Below, piece by piece: positions 12,281-28,738 of a stretch of DNA of 28,738 bases. How positions within the stretch are numbered: the first letter of the stretch is position 1; each line of letters begins with the position of its first letter. The stretch comes from a virus, in IMG/VR virus record IMGVR_UViG_3300027881_000058, positions 1-28,738 of that record; one strand, 5' to 3'. Made by a program: the position numbers and the translations under genes. Under the pieces are notes generated by a model, which searched no databases, had not been told where the DNA came from, and worked only from the letters and a program-made list of their open reading frames with translations.

Positions 12281-12889
12281 ATGAATATATTTAAGAAATT
12301 GCTTTACATCCTCAGCTGGATACCACTGGGCATCCTGAACTTCGCACTGCTCTTGGTGGGCATCCCCATTGTCGCGCTCTTCGCTGGCCTTGACCAGACA
12401 GAGTGGCCACGCTGGACGTGGCTCTGGCAGAACGAGGAAGACGCCGGCGAACCGTGGTGGTACATAAAGAGATTCCCTGATGGCTCCCCTTGGCTGCGCA
12501 TACGCCTCGGTGAGAACATGGGGGGCTTCGATCCGAACTACCTGATCGTGTTCGCCCGCCACAACAAGTGGGTACGCCAGTGGAAGTATTCAGCGTTCCG
12601 CAACCCGGTCAACAACCACCGCTTCCTAATCACAGAGCCAACGGAATACAATTCAGTCGGTCACCCCGGCGCGTTCGAAGCTGAGCCGCAGACGCTACTG
12701 CTAGGGAAGAGACGCTCGTGCTCGGGCTGGCGATGGTCAGGGTTCTTCGCAGGGTACAAGCGTACGTGGCTCAAGGGTCCTGGAAAATACTCAGAGATTT
12801 ATTTTGGTTGGAAGGTGGGCAGCGAAGTGCCCGGCTTAGGATTTACGGTGCAGCTGCGATTCAATCGAGACTACGTGGCGTATTTATAA
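12281..12889 (+). CDS. Membrane-anchored Trp/Arg-rich phage protein (DUF7338-like?)
   Basis: This 202-residue protein has a hydrophobic N-terminus of about 35 residues (LLYILSWIPLGILNFALLLV and following) that could form one long or two short spans, then a soluble part very rich in Trp, Arg, Phe and Tyr (WPRWTWLWQNEED, KWVRQWKYSAFRNP) and a C-terminal RFNRDYVAYL. It resembles a phage protein family that I recall as DUF7338, function unknown; I hold this loosely. It ends with TAATG overlapping the i-spanin start, which ties it to the lysis genes. Confidence 0.65.
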   Translation: MNIFKKLLYILSWIPLGILNFALLLVGIPIVALFAGLDQTEWPRWTWLWQNEEDAGEPWWYIKRFPDGSPWLRIRLGENMGGFDPNYLIVFARHNKWVRQWKYSAFRNPVNNHRFLITEPTEYNSVGHPGAFEAEPQTLLLGKRRSCSGWRWSGFFAGYKRTWLKGPGKYSEIYFGWKVGSEVPGLGFTVQLRFNRDYVAYL

Positions 12890-13311
12890 TGAGTAAAATC
12901 ATAGGGTTGCTGTTCAAATCCGCAATTGGTCGCTGGGTAACTGGGGGATTAGTCATTTTGTTACTAGGTAGCGCGGGGCTGATGTGGCATAATCACAAGC
13001 AGGGATTGCGCGAAGAAGGAAAACAAGAATGCATACAGGCAGTCAACCAAGAAACTCTTACGATACTGCAGGAACAGCTTGCCGCGGAGCGGGCTGTAAA
13101 TGTAGAGCTAGTGAAGTTGGGTGTCGCCAGAAACGCTGTGAATGCGGAGGCGACTGCCCGACACCGAAGTGCGGAGGCCAAGGTGTCGGAATTGAAAAGA
13201 CAAATAGCGGAGCAGGAACAGAATGATGAACCATACAATGCGTGGGCTAACACTCCTCTTCCTGCTGGTGTTGCTGCAAGGCTGCAGCTCCTCAGCGCCG
13301 GAGATAATTAG
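12889..13311 (+). CDS. Rz: i-spanin (Rz-like)
   Basis: This is the inner-membrane spanin subunit, 140 residues. An N-terminal span lies at about residues 16-33 (WVTGGLVILLLGSAGLMW), followed by a periplasmic coiled coil of about 80 residues with heptads, and a C-terminal segment YNAWANTPLPAGVAARLQ that matches the classic Rz ending. The start is set by the TAATG overlap with the previous stop; the frame is open further upstream but that part overlaps the previous gene. With the o-spanin it fuses inner and outer membranes at the last step of lysis. Confidence 0.9.
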   Translation: MSKIIGLLFKSAIGRWVTGGLVILLLGSAGLMWHNHKQGLREEGKQECIQAVNQETLTILQEQLAAERAVNVELVKLGVARNAVNAEATARHRSAEAKVSELKRQIAEQEQNDEPYNAWANTPLPAGVAARLQLLSAGDN

Positions 13312-13501
13312 AGTTCCATACGAGAGGACTATCGTTGAAAAAGTCTACGCCCCCGAAGCGCTTCTGGAACCGTGCGCCGTCCCTGACTTGGTTGCGCTCG
13401 AAACCAACAAAGATATTGAGACCGCCCTCGGGGAAGCTATTGTTTCTCTCGAAACGTGCAACAAGGATAAAGAGCGCATCCGAGAGTGGGAAGCCGAGTA
13501 A
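13223..13501 (+). CDS. Rz1: o-spanin (Rz1-like outer-membrane lipoprotein)
   Basis: This 92-residue protein starts within the i-spanin gene in another frame and runs past its end, the normal overlapping spanin arrangement. A lipoprotein signal is clear: MMNHTMRG, a hydrophobic core, then the lipobox LLQGC with Cys21 as the lipidated residue. The mature part is short, begins with SSSAPEIIRVPYERTI and ends in a charged helix. CAGGAACAG before the ATG serves as ribosome site. It is longer than lambda Rz1 and not especially Pro-rich. Confidence 0.86.
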   Translation: MMNHTMRGLTLLFLLVLLQGCSSSAPEIIRVPYERTIVEKVYAPEALLEPCAVPDLVALETNKDIETALGEAIVSLETCNKDKERIREWEAE

Positions 13502-13504
13502 GCC

Positions 13505-14032
13505 ATGAATTTCGTTAGGGATTTCTGGGACATCATCTGGGAAGTTCTCGGGTGGTTCCAAGTGATCACGTTCCTCGACGAGTGGGAAGAAGGCGTTGTC
13601 CTCCAGCGTGGCATCTACCGTCGCACTGTGAAGAAAGGCTGGTGGCTGCACTGCCCACTAGAGATCGACGAGTTCCACACGATGAACGTCAGGCCCACTG
13701 CCATGGAGCTGGCAGAGCAGGCACTCACGACGCGCGACAACAAGAAGATCATTTGTCGCGGCGTACTCATGTGGGCCATCTTCGATATCAAGAAATGCAT
13801 CCTCGACGTGGAGGATGCCAGCGACTCACTCAATGATCTCGCTGTGGGTATCATCCAAGAGCAGGTTGAGATGCAGGACTGGGGATATATCCGGAGCCCT
13901 GAGTTCCGTGCTGACGTGAAGAAAGCACTGCAACGACACGCTCGTGTGTGGGGTATCAGCGTGAAGAAATTCAAGTTCCAAGACCTCGTCTTGGCTGACT
14001 CACACAAGGTATTCGGAGGACTGGCAGAATGA
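13505..14032 (+). CDS. SPFH/Band 7 (stomatin-prohibitin-HflC-like) domain protein
   Basis: The 175-residue product has a hydrophobic, Trp-rich N-terminus (FWDIIWEVLGWFQVI) likely to lie in or on the inner membrane, followed by a Band 7 pattern: EEGVVLQRGIYRRTVKKGWW, then FHTMNVRPTAMELAEQALTTRDNKKI, RGVLMWAIFDIKKCI, AVGIIQEQVEMQDW and a C-terminal GISVKKFKFQDLV. These match the beta strands and final helix of the SPFH fold. Host members (HflK, HflC, QmcA) make cage-like rings around membrane proteases. The phage copy lacks the long coiled coil of host proteins, so it may be a minimal form. It follows the o-spanin by 3 bases and overlaps the next gene (ATGA). Confidence 0.82.
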   Translation: MNFVRDFWDIIWEVLGWFQVITFLDEWEEGVVLQRGIYRRTVKKGWWLHCPLEIDEFHTMNVRPTAMELAEQALTTRDNKKIICRGVLMWAIFDIKKCILDVEDASDSLNDLAVGIIQEQVEMQDWGYIRSPEFRADVKKALQRHARVWGISVKKFKFQDLVLADSHKVFGGLAE

Positions 14033-14313
14033 GATTCAGGCGGCGAGAGCCCTACCGGTGGCGCAAAGGCGACTGGTTCCTCGACAAGAAGTCCAAGAAG
14101 GTACGCACGTGGCCACTGAAGCTGGGGATCATCCTCCTTGGCGGCTACAGCCTGTTCATGACAGGCAATGAGATCTACCGAGCGGCCAACGAAGAGGGCT
14201 ACGAGCGAGGGATCAATAAAGGCTACCGGGCGGGCCACAAAGCGGGCCAAGAGTCAGTGGCGTGCCCACAGCCGTGGCAGACAAGTATGGCAGCCCCTGC
14301 CATAATCGACTAA
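14029..14313 (+). CDS. Small one-span membrane protein, unknown
   Basis: The 94-residue protein has a very basic N-terminus (RFRRREPYRWRKGDW), one span at about residues 29-46 (PLKLGIILLGGYSLFM), and a soluble part with Gly/Tyr-rich repeats (EGYERGINKGYRAGHKAGQE). Positive residues before the span predict the N-terminus inside. The gene overlaps the SPFH gene by 4 bases (ATGA), so the two are probably made together and may act as partners in the membrane. Function is unknown. Confidence 0.68.
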   Translation: MRFRRREPYRWRKGDWFLDKKSKKVRTWPLKLGIILLGGYSLFMTGNEIYRAANEEGYERGINKGYRAGHKAGQESVACPQPWQTSMAAPAIID

Positions 14314-15435: not shown

Positions 15436-15728
15436 TGGAAGTAATCACGGTCGTAGATGCCACAGTTGATGACGAGACCAACGACGTCACGTTGCCGACT
15501 GCCTATGAGCACTCGGAAATGATTATTCAGGTCGAGATCTCAGGCACGTTTACCGTGCAGGTGCTCGGCAAGATACACGCGTCAGCCACGTACATCGAGC
15601 TGATCGCTGAGGGGACAGTTAACGTACTCCAACCGCTGGCGTACATGCCGTACATCCGCGTCATCACTTCGGGCGGAGCCGCCACACCTATCTGTAGCGT
15701 GTACGCACTGATTGGCGACGCCCCATAG
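15435..15728 (+). CDS. Small beta-rich virion protein, second of a pair
   Basis: This 97-residue protein is a clear paralogue of the one before, with LPTAYEHSEMIIQVEISGTF, VQVLGKIHASATYIEL, QPLAYMPYIRVITSGGAATP and a final LIGDAP. I start it at 15435 because that ATG overlaps the previous stop (TAATG) and aligns with the start of the first copy; the frame is open nine codons further upstream inside the neighbouring gene. The pair is probably a tandem duplication. Confidence 0.75.
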   Translation: MEVITVVDATVDDETNDVTLPTAYEHSEMIIQVEISGTFTVQVLGKIHASATYIELIAEGTVNVLQPLAYMPYIRVITSGGAATPICSVYALIGDAP

Positions 15729-15741
15729 CAAGGGGGGGATC

Positions 15742-16470
15742 ATGCCTCTCACCTTCACAGTAGCTCGTGGCCTTACCCGAGAAGTGACCCGAAGCCTCAC
15801 TCGTGCTAGCGGTGGCGGCGGAGCCAGCCCCTTTGACAGCGTCGTGTTGCTGCTCGACTTCGCTGGGGCCGATGAGGCGACAGACATTACCGACCTGTCC
15901 AACTCTGCGCACGTAGAATCAATGGACGGGGCGGCTCAAGTAGATACCGGCCTGACGTTCTTGGGTGAGAACACTATACTCTCTCTTAATAACGCCGACG
16001 TAATAGTGTACCCGGACTCAGCGGATTGGGATTTCGGCACTGGCGACTTCACTATAGAATTTGGGTGGTACTTCGCCGGTTCAGTTCCGGCTTGGGCGGC
16101 ACCTATGGGTGGTGGATCAGGTACTACCGGGTGGAGCATAGTCCATCAGAACGGGATACCGCAAATCCGATGGACAAACGGAGTTACCTTAGTTAAGACA
16201 GAGACTTGGGCACCTGTGCATAGCACTTGGTATCACTTCGTCGTTTGTCGAGAAGGTACAAACTTGCGCATCTTCGTAGATGGTGTGCAGCTAGGCACCC
16301 CGACTACGGACTCTACTAACATCACCGGAGCGACCGGCTTGCACCTCATGGAACAGCTCGCCGCTACCAACACATTCGACGGGAGCATAGGCGCTGTCCG
16401 CATCGCTAAAGGGCATGCGTTCTACACAGAGAACTTTACCGCTCCCACGGAATTCTACCCAACCTCCTAG
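15742..16470 (+). CDS. LamG/concanavalin-like lectin-domain virion protein, copy 1
   Basis: This 242-residue protein has a short N-terminal lead-in (TREVTRSLTRASGGGGASPF) that may attach to the particle, then a LamG-type jelly roll: VVLLLDFAGADEATDITDLS, WDFGTGDFTIEFGWYF, TWYHFVVCREGTNLRIFVDG, and a final IGAVRIAKGHAFYTENFTAP. These are the hallmark strands of phage LamG proteins, which often bind glycans. The start at 15742 follows an AGGGGGGG ribosome site; an upstream in-frame ATG lies inside the previous gene. It is probably a receptor-binding or decorating protein. Confidence 0.82.
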   Translation: MPLTFTVARGLTREVTRSLTRASGGGGASPFDSVVLLLDFAGADEATDITDLSNSAHVESMDGAAQVDTGLTFLGENTILSLNNADVIVYPDSADWDFGTGDFTIEFGWYFAGSVPAWAAPMGGGSGTTGWSIVHQNGIPQIRWTNGVTLVKTETWAPVHSTWYHFVVCREGTNLRIFVDGVQLGTPTTDSTNITGATGLHLMEQLAATNTFDGSIGAVRIAKGHAFYTENFTAPTEFYPTS

Positions 16471-16480
16471 AGGGCCAGCT

Positions 16481-17215
16481 ATGTCCCTCACCCCACCAGT
16501 GACGCGCTCACTTACTCGGGAAGTGACCCGAAGCCTCATTCGTGCGACCGGCGGCGGCGGCGCCAGCGATCCCTTTTTTGACAACGTCGTGCTGCTGCTT
16601 GACTTTGCGGGGGCCGACGAAGCCCAAGCGGCTACTGACCTGTCCAACAGTCCCCACGTAATTACTTTCAGCAGCGACGCCGAACTCGATGCTGACCTGC
16701 CATTCATAGGCGAGAACAGCTTACTTTTACCAGGATTCGATGAGCTAACTGCTCCCAACCACGCTGATTGGGATTTCGGTACTGGCGACTTCTGCATTGA
16801 GTTCGGCGCCAGATGGGCAGCGGAGACGATCCCTGGGGACGTGGTTATATCGGGCTCTGTGCCTTCTACAAATCCCGGCTGGTACATATACGCAACCGGA
16901 ACCACGCTGCGGCTAACGGTAAACAACGGGATCTTAACGCAGGAAAATCACGGGATGACAGGACAAACGTGGTACCACCTGGCTGTGTGCCGGATAGGTA
17001 CGGACTTACGAATGTTTGTCGATGGCGTACAGATCGGTAGCGGTGTCACAGATTCTACCAATATTCTACAGTCGTCGGGTGTGCTAATGATAGGCGCCTT
17101 GCAGGAGCACAACGCTGCGATGGATGGCAATATAGGAGCGCTACGCATAACCAAGGGCGCAGGACGGTACGCAGAAAACTTCACTCCGCCGACAGAATTC
17201 TACCCCCGCTCCTAG
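16481..17215 (+). CDS. LamG/concanavalin-like lectin-domain virion protein, copy 2
   Basis: This 244-residue paralogue of the preceding gene keeps the lead-in (LTREVTRSLIRATGGGGAS) and all LamG blocks: VVLLLDFAGADEAQAATDLS, WDFGTGDFCIEFG, TWYHLAVCRIGTDLRMFVDG and IGALRITKGAGRYAENFTPP. Loops between the strands differ most, as expected when binding specificity has changed while the scaffold stayed. The start at 16481 has GAGGG upstream that overlaps the previous stop. Two lectin-like proteins side by side could recognise two glycans. Confidence 0.82.
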   Translation: MSLTPPVTRSLTREVTRSLIRATGGGGASDPFFDNVVLLLDFAGADEAQAATDLSNSPHVITFSSDAELDADLPFIGENSLLLPGFDELTAPNHADWDFGTGDFCIEFGARWAAETIPGDVVISGSVPSTNPGWYIYATGTTLRLTVNNGILTQENHGMTGQTWYHLAVCRIGTDLRMFVDGVQIGSGVTDSTNILQSSGVLMIGALQEHNAAMDGNIGALRITKGAGRYAENFTPPTEFYPRS

Positions 17216-24033: not shown

Positions 24034-25443
24034 CTAGGTCTGTAAAAGGTCCAGCAGCAGCTGCATGGACGTGAGCTTCTTGCCCAGCTTGGCGTAGACG
24101 TTCTCGTCGTACGTATTTCTGGCAATGATATGGATGGTCTCTGTCTTCCGTGTCTGCCCGGAGCGATAGATCCTATGGTTGAGCTGCTTGTAGAACTCAG
24201 CATTGTACGTCGGCGACGTCCAGATGGTGGTCGTTCCCTTGGTCAGTGTCAGCCCATGCCCCCCGGACTGAGGGTGAGCATAAATGTCGTCGATCTCACC
24301 GGCTTGGAACAAATTGACCGCTTCGATGCGGTGCTTGTCAAGGACAGTGCCGTCTATTATCCGGTACTTGCGGCCACGTTTGGTCGCGGCCTTCTCTAGG
24401 CCCAACCTCTGATGGCGCCAGTTGAACGCAACCACGCACTGCTCTCTGGCCTCAGCCAGATCCATCACCAGCTCGTAGCGCCCGTCGTCGAGGACCACGT
24501 GGGGGTTCTCGCTGTCCGGGCTCAGCAGGTTGGTGTACACAGCGCCCGACGCTATCTGCATGAGCTTCTGATGTACCGCTGAGGCATGTACTGCGGTCAG
24601 CAGCTGCCCACTGTCGAGGAGGGTAGCAGCCATGTCGACCATGCTGTCGTAGTGTTTGCGTAGTGCCGGCGGTAGGTCGATGTAGTACTCGGTCACCTTG
24701 TTCGGGGGGATGTCCACGCACTCCTCAAACTTGTGTCGGATGGAGAACGCGTCGATGCGATCGTAGACCACGACCTCTGAGCCTGCCTTGTCTTCCCATG
24801 TAAGGTGGTTGATGCTTGGCCCCGTCTGTCTTGGCTCGCACACGATCGATCGGAACTTCCAGAAGCTCGTGCCCAATGCCTTTCCATCGTCCAAGAGCTT
24901 GACCTGGTGCCACAGCTCGGTGATTGAGTTCGGGTTGGGTGTGCCGGTCATGCACTCTCGATACTGCATCTTCTTGGCCAGCCCATAGGCTGCCTTGGAG
25001 CGTTGCGTGTTGGCGTGCTTGTACGCTGTGCTCTCGTCGATGATGATCGTGTCGAAGTCATCCCAGTATTTCTTGGGGATGTTCTTCGTGTTCAGCAGCC
25101 ACTTGGCAGCATCGTGGTTGGTGATGTAGATGTCGACGTCGTGATCTAGAAAGGCCTTCTTGCGGTTTGTGGCATAGGCGACCATGTACGACGTGCCGGG
25201 GAAGAACTTGTCGATCTCATTCCCCCACGCAGGCTGTAGTATAGACTTAGGAGCGAGTACCAAGCATTTTTTGCCGCCAGCAGTGCGCCTCTCGATAAAT
25301 GCAGCAAGTGCCGGCCGCGTTTTAGCAGTGCCAGGATCTGAAGTGTCGAAAAAGCGGTCCTGTTCGCGTAGTAATGCAAGCGTCTTGTTTTGGTGTTCAT
25401 AGTAGGGGGGTATCTCCCTGATAAAATCTTTGATGTTAGCCAC
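24034..25443 (-). CDS. SNF2/DEAD-like superfamily 2 helicase
   Basis: This 469-residue ATPase has the SF2 motifs in order: YYEHQNKTLALL (Q-like), Walker A DPGTAKTR (residues 36-43), CLVLAPKSIL (Ia), DTIIIDESTAYKH with the DES box at 136-138 (Walker B), TGTPNPNS (III), then a second lobe with QCVVAFNWRHQRL, SGGHGLTLTKGTTTI (V) and QLNHRIYRSGQTRKTETIHII (VI). This is the SNF2-like phage group that unwinds or remodels DNA and often works with recombination proteins. I favour the GTG start at 25443 with GGGAG upstream and TAGTG overlap; an ATG at 25464 would add seven residues but lacks a ribosome site. Confidence 0.9.
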   Translation of the reverse strand: MANIKDFIREIPPYYEHQNKTLALLREQDRFFDTSDPGTAKTRPALAAFIERRTAGGKKCLVLAPKSILQPAWGNEIDKFFPGTSYMVAYATNRKKAFLDHDVDIYITNHDAAKWLLNTKNIPKKYWDDFDTIIIDESTAYKHANTQRSKAAYGLAKKMQYRECMTGTPNPNSITELWHQVKLLDDGKALGTSFWKFRSIVCEPRQTGPSINHLTWEDKAGSEVVVYDRIDAFSIRHKFEECVDIPPNKVTEYYIDLPPALRKHYDSMVDMAATLLDSGQLLTAVHASAVHQKLMQIASGAVYTNLLSPDSENPHVVLDDGRYELVMDLAEAREQCVVAFNWRHQRLGLEKAATKRGRKYRIIDGTVLDKHRIEAVNLFQAGEIDDIYAHPQSGGHGLTLTKGTTTIWTSPTYNAEFYKQLNHRIYRSGQTRKTETIHIIARNTYDENVYAKLGKKLTSMQLLLDLLQT

Positions 25444-25937
25444 TAAAAGTCTCCCTCGGCACATTGCAGTGCGACCAGCCCTTCCTCACGCCACATGTTT
25501 ACGACGCGACCCCTGTCTTCGAGAGCAATCGTCGGCACGAGTACGTTCTTTGGTAGAATAATTCTCCCTTCACGCATGTCGCGGAGCCACGTTCGTTTTA
25601 TCTCAGTGTCAGCCGTGTGGTCCCCGTGCTTGCGCATGAGGATCAGGTCCCAGGGAATTTTGTACTTCTCCAACCACTCGATCGTCTGCTCCCGCACCAA
25701 AGAACTTCGCCCCGTAATCAATATTATCCCCCACCCCGCGGCTCGTAACGTACGCACGAGCGCGCAGGTAGGTTCAATTGGATCGTCCTTGTCCATGTTC
25801 GCGTAGAAGGAGTCCCAGTCTGCTTTGAAGGTGGCCTCCTTGTCGCTTTCGAACTGCGTGATAAAGTGTAGCCGCGCAGAACAGTCAGCGATCGTACCGT
25901 CTATGTCGACGATTATTGTTGGCTTTGGCTCAGTCAT
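25443..25937 (-). CDS. HAD phosphatase, polynucleotide kinase 3'-phosphatase-like
   Basis: The 164-residue protein has all HAD motifs: motif I DIDGTIAD with D11 and D13, motif II ILITGR (T75), motif III with K114 (TEIKRTWL), and motif IV ALEDRGRVVNMWREEGL with D141. The last block closely matches the 3'-phosphatase half of T4-type polynucleotide kinase/phosphatase (FDDR..VV.MWR). The kinase half is absent. It would remove 3' phosphates from DNA or RNA ends. The ATG at 25937 follows AGGAG by 5 bases; a GTG two codons earlier is less likely. The stop overlaps the helicase GTG. Confidence 0.86.
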   Translation of the reverse strand: MTEPKPTIIVDIDGTIADCSARLHFITQFESDKEATFKADWDSFYANMDKDDPIEPTCALVRTLRAAGWGIILITGRSSLVREQTIEWLEKYKIPWDLILMRKHGDHTADTEIKRTWLRDMREGRIILPKNVLVPTIALEDRGRVVNMWREEGLVALQCAEGDF

Positions 25938-25939
25938 TC

Positions 25940-26506
25940 TCACTCCTTATAGAAGGCGTCCCACACATGCTCTTCTATTATTTCAAGACCATCAAGTACA
26001 GCAGTGCAGGCAGCTGCTAGCTCGGGGCTTTTGGGTCTGTACAGATAGGGCTCGTCTCCTCGGCTGGGGGTGAACTCTTGTCCTTCCCTGCGTTCAGCAG
26101 TATCTCGACCAGCTCTGCCTGCAGTCCCCGGCGAACCGTGCCCAGCTTCGCTAGGAGGGTGATCTCCGTTTCCTGCAGCTCTTCCAGCTCCGCCATCTTC
26201 TCCAGTGCTGCTACTGACTCCGCTGGTACGTCGGCCGAGACTTTGCCGGTCAGGAAGTCGTTGATCTCTTCCTGCCCTGCGTCGCTCTCCAAGAGCGCGA
26301 TGAATTCCTTCGAGTCCTCCGGACCCAGCTCCACTGCTTTCATTCCCATGTTGTTCTCCTGCTTGTATTAACGTTTGAATGTGTCCTTCGCACAACTTAG
26401 TAACTTCTTTCCGAGATACCATGCGGCAATTCTCGGCACCATCTAGCGAATTCGCTAAGTGATCTCGTTCTAAGTCACTAAGTTCGATGTGAATTATTGT
26501 TTTCAA
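25940..26506 (-). CDS. Long ORF overprinted by a nested gene, unknown
   Basis: The frame codes for 188 residues. A TTG start at 26506 has GGAG 7 bases upstream. Residues 1-50 read like a small folded protein (MKTIIHIELSDLERDHLANS followed by VSRKEVTKLCEGHIQTLI). From about residue 53 to 150 the chain is low-complexity, rich in Gly, Arg, Ser and Glu, which is what one expects of an off-frame reading of the nested gene. The last 35 residues (PELAAACTAVLDGLEIIEEH onward) again look real, and the TGA is 3 bases from the next ATG. Either this is a true overprinted gene with a disordered middle, or only its ends are real. Confidence 0.5.
   Translation of the reverse strand: MKTIIHIELSDLERDHLANSLDGAENCRMVSRKEVTKLCEGHIQTLIQAGEQHGNESSGAGSGGLEGIHRALGERRRAGRDQRLPDRQSLGRRTSGVSSSTGEDGGAGRAAGNGDHPPSEAGHGSPGTAGRAGRDTAERREGQEFTPSRGDEPYLYRPKSPELAAACTAVLDGLEIIEEHVWDAFYKE
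26017..26349 (-). CDS. Nested acidic coiled-coil protein, unknown
   Basis: The 110-residue protein (MGMKAVELGPEDSKEFIALL and onward) is acidic and helical, with a likely coiled coil (EKMAELEELQETEITLLAKL) and a Ser/Pro-rich end. AGGAG 6 bases before the ATG gives it a good ribosome site. It lies wholly inside the 188-residue frame on the same strand. A slippery CCCAAAA three codons before its stop (Pro106-Lys107) could shift ribosomes by -1 and append 29 residues, giving 136 residues that end just before the next gene. Function unknown. Confidence 0.7.
   Translation of the reverse strand: MGMKAVELGPEDSKEFIALLESDAGQEEINDFLTGKVSADVPAESVAALEKMAELEELQETEITLLAKLGTVRRGLQAELVEILLNAGKDKSSPPAEETSPICTDPKAPS
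26029..26035 (-). other. Candidate -1 ribosomal frameshift heptamer CCCAAAA
   Basis: On the minus strand the sequence reads C CCA AAA in the frame of the nested gene, a perfect X XXY YYZ slippery site at codons 106-107. GAGGAG lies about 20 bases before it, further than the usual stimulator distance, and a short AGCAG/CTGCT hairpin can form after it. Shift by -1 enters the frame of the 188-residue ORF. Confidence 0.5.
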
Positions 26507-26538
26507 AACTGGTCTCCAATTTTACAACTTTTTCTGTC

Positions 26539-26799
26539 CTAGGGGGGGCTGTTTTTAGTGACCTGCTCCCGCATTAGTTCTTCGACTTCGTCGATGACTG
26601 CTTCCGCCTCTGAAAATAGCGCCCATGTGCCCACAAGAGAGTCTTCCATCTCTTCACCCAACGGGTACAGGTCAACGACGACACCTTCGTCCGTACGTCG
26701 TACGTACACGCTGATGTTGTCAACAGTGATCCATACTGAGGTGTGCTCTTCTTTGAGCACATAGTCTGACTCGCCTTCACGTTTCAGTGCTTTGCTCAT
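26539..26799 (-). CDS. Small acidic phage protein, unknown
   Basis: The 86-residue protein shows KEEHTSVWITVDNISVYVRR and GVVVDLYPLGEEMEDSLVGT, a short beta hairpin followed by a helix (EAEAVIDEVEELMREQ). It is acidic overall. Its start overlaps the previous stop (ATGA). Downstream, a 32-base gap contains the ribosome site of the TTG-started ORF. Such small alpha/beta proteins often act as host-takeover factors, but no specific role is visible. Confidence 0.68.
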   Translation of the reverse strand: MSKALKREGESDYVLKEEHTSVWITVDNISVYVRRTDEGVVVDLYPLGEEMEDSLVGTWALFSEAEAVIDEVEELMREQVTKNSPP

Positions 26800-26981
26800 G
26801 GTCTAAATCCCTTCGTGAGTTCCCTGTATTCAGCTTTTGCTCGCTGCTCGATGTCTTTACAAAAGTCGAAGTCCAATGTGCCGCCAGATTTAAGGCGCTC
26901 TTGTATGTTCGGACCATAATATCGATCCCACAAAAGAAACCACGTAATCTGAAGTGGTGTCATCTGCAGTATGTCAATCAT
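26796..26981 (-). CDS. Small phage protein, unknown
   Basis: I start this 61-residue protein at the ATG that overlaps the previous stop (ATGA at 26978-26981). It reads MIDILQMTPLQITWFLLWDR, then YYGPNIQERLKSGG and a helical end (CKDIEQRAKAEYRELTKG). Its own stop also overlaps the next start (ATGA). The frame is open further upstream, but that part overlaps the previous gene. Confidence 0.6.
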   Translation of the reverse strand: MIDILQMTPLQITWFLLWDRYYGPNIQERLKSGGTLDFDFCKDIEQRAKAEYRELTKGFRP

Positions 26982-27187
26982 GCCGACAAGTCCATCAGTG
27001 TCGGCCGCGTGAAGCCCGGTGGGTGCATCTTCGCTATCCACTTGCGTTCCACTTTGGTGACGTCGTTTGAGATCTCGCAGTCAACGTCCACGGATTGCTT
27101 GGTGCGCTCCGCGAGGGCACTTGCGTAGTTTGCAGCGTTCTCAAATCTAGTGAATGTCGTGCCCGCGACTATGTATTTTGTCGTCAT
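26978..27187 (-). CDS. Small phage protein, unknown
   Basis: The 69-residue product reads MTTKYIVAGTTFTRFENAAN, then a helix YASALAERTKQ, VDVDCEISNDVTKVERKWIA and a Pro-rich end. A strand-helix-strand order with few charged patches is visible but no known motif. AGGAG lies 7 bases before the ATG, and the gene opens a chain of three coupled by ATGA overlaps. Confidence 0.62.
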   Translation of the reverse strand: MTTKYIVAGTTFTRFENAANYASALAERTKQSVDVDCEISNDVTKVERKWIAKMHPPGFTRPTLMDLSA

Positions 27188-27207
27188 GATTTGCTCCTGT
27201 GCTCAAT

Positions 27208-27227
27208 ATCGCTACACACGTAGCGAT
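27208..27227. promoter_or_regulatory. Perfect 8-bp hairpin or operator
   Basis: ATCGCTAC - ACAC - GTAGCGAT is a perfect inverted repeat with a 4-base loop, 21 bases before the gene that starts at 27187. It has no T-run after it, so an operator or mRNA stability element fits better than a terminator. Confidence 0.5.
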
Positions 27228-27285
27228 TTGTAAGAAGTTGCGGCGGATGCACAGCTTGGCATATGAAACGCTCGGGATGGGGCGC

Positions 27286-27349
27286 GGAGAGGACCAAGCT
27301 GCGCGGTACGTATACGACGCCGCCGCGCGCCGACGGAGGTTTCCTCTCC
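27286..27349. repeat. Nested inverted repeats in the 27188-27349 gap
   Basis: GGAGAGGA (27286-27293) pairs with TCCTCTCC (27342-27349), and inside it GCGCGG (27301-27306) pairs with CCGCGC (27323-27328). The whole could form a long stem-loop directly after the stop of the 154-residue gene. No U-run follows on the minus strand. Confidence 0.45.
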
Positions 27350-27814
27350 TTACAAGGTGTTGAACGTGTCCTCTTTGAAGTCGGCCGGGTTGAACGCGGC
27401 GAACTCTTGCAGCGCTATTAATGCAGCGTGTTGGTCACCAAGCACGATTGCATCTTCGACAGCATTTGCTTTTTCGTTGACTATGTCTCGTAGCCTCGAA
27501 TAGGCTGCAAACTCTGCGTCGTACCGAGTTTTCTCAGCTGTTCGCGCTTTGGCGAATGCATACTCGAGAACGATGCTTTCAAAGTTTGGTTTACTGTAGG
27601 AAGAAGTTTCCTGTGAGTACTGATCTGCCCACTCTTGTGCGAATCGTTGCAGCTGTACGCCGGAAAACTTTACTTCACCAGTACGTAACCCATTGACCAA
27701 GTCGCGAGTGTTGTACGCCTTTTGGTTTACAGGAGCTTTACCGATCAGGTTAGCCTTTATACTACGTACGCGTGCTCGTGCGTGGTCAATTTGACCCATC
27801 ATCATTTTAGGCAT
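27350..27814 (-). CDS. Helical phage protein, unknown
   Basis: The 154-residue protein begins MPKMMMGQIDHARARVRSIK and contains a loop VNQKAYNTRDLVNGLRTGEV, then long helices (SIVLEYAFAKARTAEKTRYD, AAYSRLRDIVNEKANAVEDA) and an acidic end. It is probably a small alpha-helical bundle. The ribosome site AAGGA lies within the end of the previous gene, and the start overlaps its stop (TAATG). No catalytic motif is seen. Confidence 0.68.
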   Translation of the reverse strand: MPKMMMGQIDHARARVRSIKANLIGKAPVNQKAYNTRDLVNGLRTGEVKFSGVQLQRFAQEWADQYSQETSSYSKPNFESIVLEYAFAKARTAEKTRYDAEFAAYSRLRDIVNEKANAVEDAIVLGDQHAALIALQEFAAFNPADFKEDTFNTL

Positions 27815-28002
27815 TATGCTATTCCTTTCGTTATTTTAGGCTTTTCGCCAAGTAAGTTGCCCGGTTTTATGCCGCTCCGGGCTAGCTGCTTCGAATTCAG
27901 ATAGAAACAAACCTGATAATTTCCCAACGTCTTGGACTTTGCAGGTCTTACTCGCCAGTACCACCGCCCAGCGGCCCCAGGTTGTTCCATAAGTGACTTC
28001 AT
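27814..28002 (-). CDS. Small basic phage protein, unknown; start uncertain
   Basis: With the ATG at 28002 this gives 62 residues: MKSLMEQPGAAGRWYWRVRP, then KSKTLGNYQVCFYLNSKQLA and a basic end. Strands rich in Trp, Tyr and Arg suggest nucleic-acid or protein binding. A GTG at 28032 would add ten residues, but neither start has a good ribosome site. The tRNA ends about 24 to 54 bases upstream, so the mRNA 5' end here may come from tRNA processing. Confidence 0.55.
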   Translation of the reverse strand: MKSLMEQPGAAGRWYWRVRPAKSKTLGNYQVCFYLNSKQLARSGIKPGNLLGEKPKITKGIA

Positions 28003-28055
28003 CGTTAGCGACTTATAGATTGTCCACGCCACTACATGGACAGCCGATTCGGATT

Positions 28056-28141
28056 TGGTGTAGAGGGAGGGAGTCGAACCCCCACGGATGAACCGACCAC
28101 GGGGTTACAGCCCGGTACCCTTCCTATTGGGTGTCCTCTAC
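28056..28141 (-). tRNA. tRNA-Tyr (anticodon GTA)
   Basis: The 86-base RNA folds as a class II tRNA. Acceptor GTAGAGG pairs with CCTCTAC; D stem ACCC/GGGT; anticodon stem CCGGG/CCCGT with loop CTGTAAC (GTA anticodon, Tyr); a 15-base variable arm with CGG/CCG; T stem GGGGG/CCCTC with loop TTCGACT; and A-CCA encoded at the 3' end. The first anticodon-stem pair is a C-T mismatch. The first base of the tRNA is the last base of the TAG of the nuclease gene, so the RNA must be cut out of a shared transcript. Confidence 0.95.
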
Positions 28142-28738
28142 TAGACGCCCCATTTGCAGGAGCTATCGCCGTGCTGCGGGCCGTATGGGCACCACATGCA
28201 CGTGATCTTGTTCGGGTTGGGTGGGAACTCTTCCGCGGTCGTCATCTTGAGGGCGCGCTCGTTCCACGAGGGGAGGAAGCGCATCGCCTTCTCTCTGGTA
28301 TAGTATTTGGTTGTGCGTGTGCTGGGCGGATGATCGAGATAGATGAACTCCACGTTGCACTCTTCCAGCGTTGGGTATCTCATGAACGAGCCCAACACGT
28401 AGAGCATGCCCTGCTGGCTGTGAGAGACCTCGTTCCCGAACTTCTTGCCAGACTTGTAGTCCGTGGGCGTCGCTGAGGTTGGCAGTTTGAAGCCAAGACC
28501 TCTAAGGGCATCGGAGTCAGGATCTATTTTGTAGTCGTCGTAGATGAAGTTATCGAGCTTCATCCGACACCACACGTCTTTGTCGAACCACCCTGTGGGC
28601 TCCCAGTCGATCGTGAAGCCCCAGTTCTCTTCCAGCTCTACCTCACCGTTGTTGTACTTGCCCTTCAGACCCTGAAAGTAAGCAGCATACCGTGTCATTT
28701 CTTTGGTGAGGGCAGCTTCGCCCTTTACGAACGCTTCG
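28141..28738 (-). CDS. Cas4/RecB-like PD-(D/E)XK nuclease (partial)
   Basis: The frame is open to the right edge, so the N-terminus is missing; a Met at 28698 is internal because EAFVKGEAALTKE before it fits the fold. The visible part has a nuclease core with CRMKLDNF and ATPTDYKSGKKFG (Asp...Asp-x-Lys), QGMLYVLGSFMRYP, and a C-terminal CMWCPYGPQHGDSSC with three Cys as in the Fe-S cluster of Cas4/AddB-type exonucleases. A fourth Cys may lie outside the window. It would process DNA ends in phage recombination. Its stop overlaps the tRNA by one base. Confidence 0.84.
   Translation of the reverse strand, partial: EAFVKGEAALTKEMTRYAAYFQGLKGKYNNGEVELEENWGFTIDWEPTGWFDKDVWCRMKLDNFIYDDYKIDPDSDALRGLGFKLPTSATPTDYKSGKKFGNEVSHSQQGMLYVLGSFMRYPTLEECNVEFIYLDHPPSTRTTKYYTREKAMRFLPSWNERALKMTTAEEFPPNPNKITCMWCPYGPQHGDSSCKWGV

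Follow-up and report, generated by a model that had tools for sequence, protein, structure and literature searches.

This locus, a small open reading frame lying inside a longer frame on the same strand with a slippery heptamer just before its stop, raises the question of whether its two frames represent overprinted genes, one gene extended by -1 frameshifting, or a gene whose frame has been broken. The window analysed is the whole stretch of DNA of the virus record IMGVR_UViG_3300027881_000058 (positions 1-28,738; 28,738 bases), in which structural genes occupy the left part on the plus strand, while the minus strand carries the early genes, between about 28,700 and 17,700. The long frame runs on the minus strand from TTG 26506 to TGA 25942-25940 (188 aa). 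On the same strand, the nested ORF, a 110-aa orphan gene (26017-26349), extends from ATG 26349 to TAG 26019-26017 and carries AGGAG six bases before its ATG, which confirms the arrangement and the good ribosome site described in the earlier note. The CCCAAAA heptamer (26029-26035, minus strand) is indeed found three sense codons before the nested stop, and is in the register of the nested frame, which reads through it as GAC CCA AAA GCC CCG AGC TAG. The -1 frame stays open across the heptamer and past the 0-frame stop, to the TGA at 25940. A -1 step at the heptamer would join 107 and 29 residues into a product of 136 residues ending at TGA 25942-25940. The 29 added residues were correctly announced, whereas the distance from this TGA to the ATG of the next gene (25937) is two bases and not three; the unshifted TAG leaves 79 bases, in line with the gap of about 80 bases initially noticed.

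With regard to the genomic context, the phage appears podovirus-like, with the Pseudomonas phage KPP25 as a distant relative (the helicase shares 37-38% identity with that of KPP25, and up to 62% with the best IMG/VR loci). The gene next to the nested ORF codes for a HAD-type phosphatase of the PNKP family (25443-25937, minus strand; Pfam HAD_PNKP 3.5e-24, phrog_415 2.3e-38), and a SNF2-type helicase gene (24034-25464, minus strand; phrog_62 3.9e-105) served as the anchor for finding relatives, yielding 80 loci. On the far side of the nested ORF from the phosphatase, the gene at 28141-28698 (minus strand) belongs to a stretch widely matched among related loci and, judging from its place upstream of the helicase, probably corresponds to the RecB-like exonuclease of these relatives. 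Gene content between exonuclease and helicase differs in L017, L020 and KPP25, and the zone is therefore variable. Small orphan genes fill it (25443-28032, minus strand), their content differing in each related phage examined, and a tRNA-Tyr gene (anticodon gta; 28056-28141, minus strand) lies directly 3' of gene 28141-28698 and borders the variable zone on its upstream side.

For coding potential, given in bit per codon, 40 other ORFs of the window served to train a codon model. The nested frame scores +0.27, the genes of the window ranging from -0.05 to 0.33, and its GC content by codon position (0.67/0.40/0.73) agrees with this frame being the coding one. When folded with AlphaFold2 from single sequence, its product is predicted with a mean pLDDT of 81 to form helices at residues 10-21, 23-33 and 43-90, the latter a long coil, followed by a disordered C-terminus. 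The nested 110-codon ORF is the coding frame, and represents an ordinary small accessory gene.

The surrounding frame might nevertheless be translated from TTG 26506, the nested gene being then a second gene within it. A GGAG is present seven bases before this TTG, 188 codons are open, and of 482 comparable stretches of 110 codons only one has an open -1 frame. However, across the nested stretch the long frame scores about -0.3, as is typical of an off-frame reading, and the amino-acid composition of this middle part is worse than that of 95% of shuffles. The openness of the middle is explained by the codon usage of the nested gene, in which only 4.5% of codons end in T, against a reference of 17.6%. 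Selection against stops in the overlapping frame was ruled out as the cause of this bias, since T-ending codons are scarce also where no stop would arise (5 vs 11.0 expected, and 0 vs 5.7 expected in stop-making contexts); furthermore, the long frame is still open in 19% of permutations of the nested gene's own codons. T-ending codons occur at 0.3-0.4 of the expected rate in the small genes 14029-14313 (plus strand), 26978-27187 (minus strand) and 26017-26349 (minus strand), the last being the nested gene itself. The front part of the long frame (26350-26506, minus strand; 52 codons) is AT-rich (41% GC) and has a chance of 0.023 of being open, but is no better than shuffled DNA in codons (p = 0.49) or amino acids (p = 0.17); it may be a small ORF or an untranslated leader. 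A poor fold is predicted for the 188-residue product as a whole (pLDDT 42, AlphaFold2 from single sequence), and coding constraint on both frames, as in an overprinted pair, was not found. The off-frame statistics, the depletion of T-ending codons and the poor fold therefore leave an overprinted 188-residue protein unsupported, and we consider this option of the earlier note very unlikely. Its description of the long frame holds for the off-frame middle and for the coding-like tail analysed below, but not for the front.

The tail (25940-26035, minus strand), consisting of 31 codons and a TGA in the -1 frame, has no ATG, GTG or TTG of its own near its start. It scores 0.11 bit per codon, a value reached by 1% of shuffles and below which 27% of true coding stretches fall, and the 25 codons past the TAG average 0.19; the p-value of its amino-acid composition is 0.002. 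With only 31 codons, this coding signal is modest, amounting to about 3 to 5 bits. As a control, we searched 349 gaps in related loci, each 40-150 bases long and flanked by genes of one strand, for gap-filling off-frames of at least 20 codons, using a crude gene finder (longest non-overlapping ORFs) on loci of which many are mutually related. In 43 of the 49 frames retrieved an ATG, GTG or TTG is present, and these frames probably represent small genes. The other six are start-less, their best score is 0.03, and none is as gene-like as the tail. Given this rarity, the tail probably belongs to the upstream nested gene, either through -1 slippage or as a piece severed by a one-base indel.

Two other origins of the tail can be considered. 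The nested gene could simply end at its TAG, followed by a non-coding spacer carrying the ribosome site of the next gene, and indeed the Shine-Dalgarno sequence of the phosphatase, AAGGAG, falls within the final two codons of the tail. Gaps of 42-189 bases exist elsewhere in the same gene row, and the shortness of the coding signal and the lack of any tail homologue (best E of about 7) are in keeping with such a spacer, which we nonetheless judge unlikely, as it would make accidents of both the heptamer and a composition with p = 0.002-0.01 that no start-less control frame in 349 gaps matches. Alternatively, the tail could be a separate mini-ORF of 34 codons initiated at CTG 26044-26042, which is in the tail frame and has a GAGGAG (26061-26056, minus strand) 11 bases upstream; in related phages, gap-filling frames are usually small overlapping genes. 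Yet these start with ATG, GTG or TTG, CTG starts are rare, and the GAG GAG doubles as an ordinary Glu-Glu pair encoded by the nested gene, making this explanation highly improbable. All weights given to the different readings are a matter of judgement, with a slight remainder kept for others.

A coding-like tail combined with a heptamer in register makes a frame change near the end of the nested gene likely, and to this extent the frameshift and indel options raised earlier stand, slippage and break carrying similar weight. With regard to the heptamer, A/T-type motifs in register are present in the last six codons of 2.2% of 1771 genes of related phages, a share that rises to 6.4% when the last 22 codons are considered. 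Apart from C CCA AAA, the genes of the window have no A/T-type heptamer at 250 codons or less from a stop. Among 1119 genes, 11 have both a heptamer at most 12 codons from the stop and a -1 frame that continues for 20 codons or longer; in none of them does this extension end at the next gene. In E. coli, C_CC.A_AA.A shifts above 0.10% without stimulators and falls within the V_VV.A_AA.R class, counted among the most efficient motifs (PMC4066793). The slip position lies in the predicted disordered C-terminus of the nested product (AlphaFold2), past the long helix.

No helper signals were detected around the heptamer. Downstream, RNA structure does not exceed that of shuffles (folding z = -0.25; 40-base hairpin p = 0.5), and 81% of shuffles did as well in a crude pseudoknot search. 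Upstream, there is no correctly spaced Shine-Dalgarno, the lone candidate being the GAGGAG mentioned above, which ends 20 bases before the heptamer instead of about 10. Judged by codon likelihood, the frame could switch anywhere between about 26083 and 26020, a plateau whose best points, 26077 and 26056, exceed the heptamer by 2-3 bits.

These features also fit a gene that was formerly continuous and has been broken by a one-base mutation, or by an assembly error, in the run-rich segment leading up to the TAG, the heptamer being incidental. Such a break accounts for a coding-like tail without a start, could have occurred anywhere between 26083 and 26020, where the likelihood optima are upstream of the heptamer and C and A runs are present, and would be tolerated in a hypervariable accessory zone; the lack of stimulators at the heptamer is likewise expected. 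It also has the higher prior, since a survey of prokaryotic frame transitions counted 4010 pseudogene clusters and only 146 recoding clusters (PMC3711429). On the other hand, the heptamer must then be a coincidence (2-6%). Where related phages align, the conserved genes of the window show no other frame break, which argues mildly against poor assembly. We regard a broken gene as a real possibility, albeit one that we would not assume.

Homologues that could separate slippage from breakage were sought widely. No relative of the nested gene, the tail or the front was found among phages or in contigs of viruses and genomes, near-identical records having possibly been left out, nor at the 80 helicase loci or at 80 phosphatase loci; searches with the fused product were likewise empty. 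The nested gene, tail and front gave no match in PHROGs, Pfam or viral structures, and none was obtained in Rfam. The few matches that did emerge were rejected: those to the WDAFYKE pattern in genome contigs are unrelated proteins, the best match of the tail, phAPEC8 gp109 (the E of about 7 cited above), was treated as chance, and so was a match of the front in L009/L010, located inside a larger gene. Lacking both relatives and helper signals, a slip is here indistinguishable from a one-base break.

We tentatively favour -1 slippage at C CCA AAA, giving the nested gene a C-terminal extension, as the best single explanation, without claiming it to be probable. It draws on the exact register of the heptamer, its 2.2% background, the coding-like tail, the shift-prone motif and the disordered slip region; against it count the absent helpers, the lack of relatives, the variable orphan-gene zone and the likelihood optima upstream of the heptamer. 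In this scenario, a minority of ribosomes would move back by one base at C CCA AAA, add 29 residues and halt two bases before the phosphatase ATG, so that a 136-residue form would be produced beside the 110-residue form. The shifted ribosomes may be delivered to the phosphatase start. We infer the occurrence, rate and use of the slippage from the sequence, and the site can reasonably be taken, from this one sequence, as a candidate for -1 frameshifting, short of demonstrated recoding. A further proposal, that an accessory gene without structural role uses a functional -1 frameshift to set two C-terminal forms and to link recoding with the expression of a polynucleotide-phosphatase gene, appears doubtful.

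In bacteria and phages, -1 programmed frameshifting of the X_XXY_YYZ class is known from IS3-family transposases and dnaX, and its stimulators, a downstream structure or an upstream Shine-Dalgarno, are usual but not obligatory. The present locus resembles this class by its heptamer in 0-frame register near the stop, its open -1 frame and its coding-like extension, but differs by having no stimulatory structure or well-spaced Shine-Dalgarno, and by being known from one sequence. Another precedent is the lambda-type tail assembly chaperone gpG/gpGT, discussed in PMC10885494, which is made by frameshift and likewise involves a short gene prolonged in the -1 frame. In contrast to that system, the surrounding genes here are early-strand genes (exonuclease; phosphatase and helicase) and not tail genes, and the product is predicted to be a small coil; no tail assembly chaperone match was found for it in PHROGs or Pfam. 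The locus can also be compared with frame-disrupted accessory genes (the pseudogene class of PMC3711429), with which it shares a single frame switch of the coding signal in a run-rich stretch, the perfect in-register heptamer being the difference. If the slip is real, it would be an instance of recoding away from the tail-chaperone genes, where phage frameshifts are usually annotated, and would show a shift moving the termination point next to a downstream start. If the frame is broken, the case cautions that recoding is not established by finding a slippery heptamer next to a stop in just one metagenomic record.

Other overlaps are present on the plus strand of the window. A gene for an Rz-like spanin (12718-13311), whose true start is probably near 12889, is overlapped by a small Rz1-like lipoprotein gene (LLQGC; 13223-13501), forming an ordinary overlapping lysis pair. 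In addition, two neighbouring genes (15712-16470 and 16415-17215) are tandem paralogues, both matching one and the same stretch of shared baseplate-wedge-like families, including phrog_3545.
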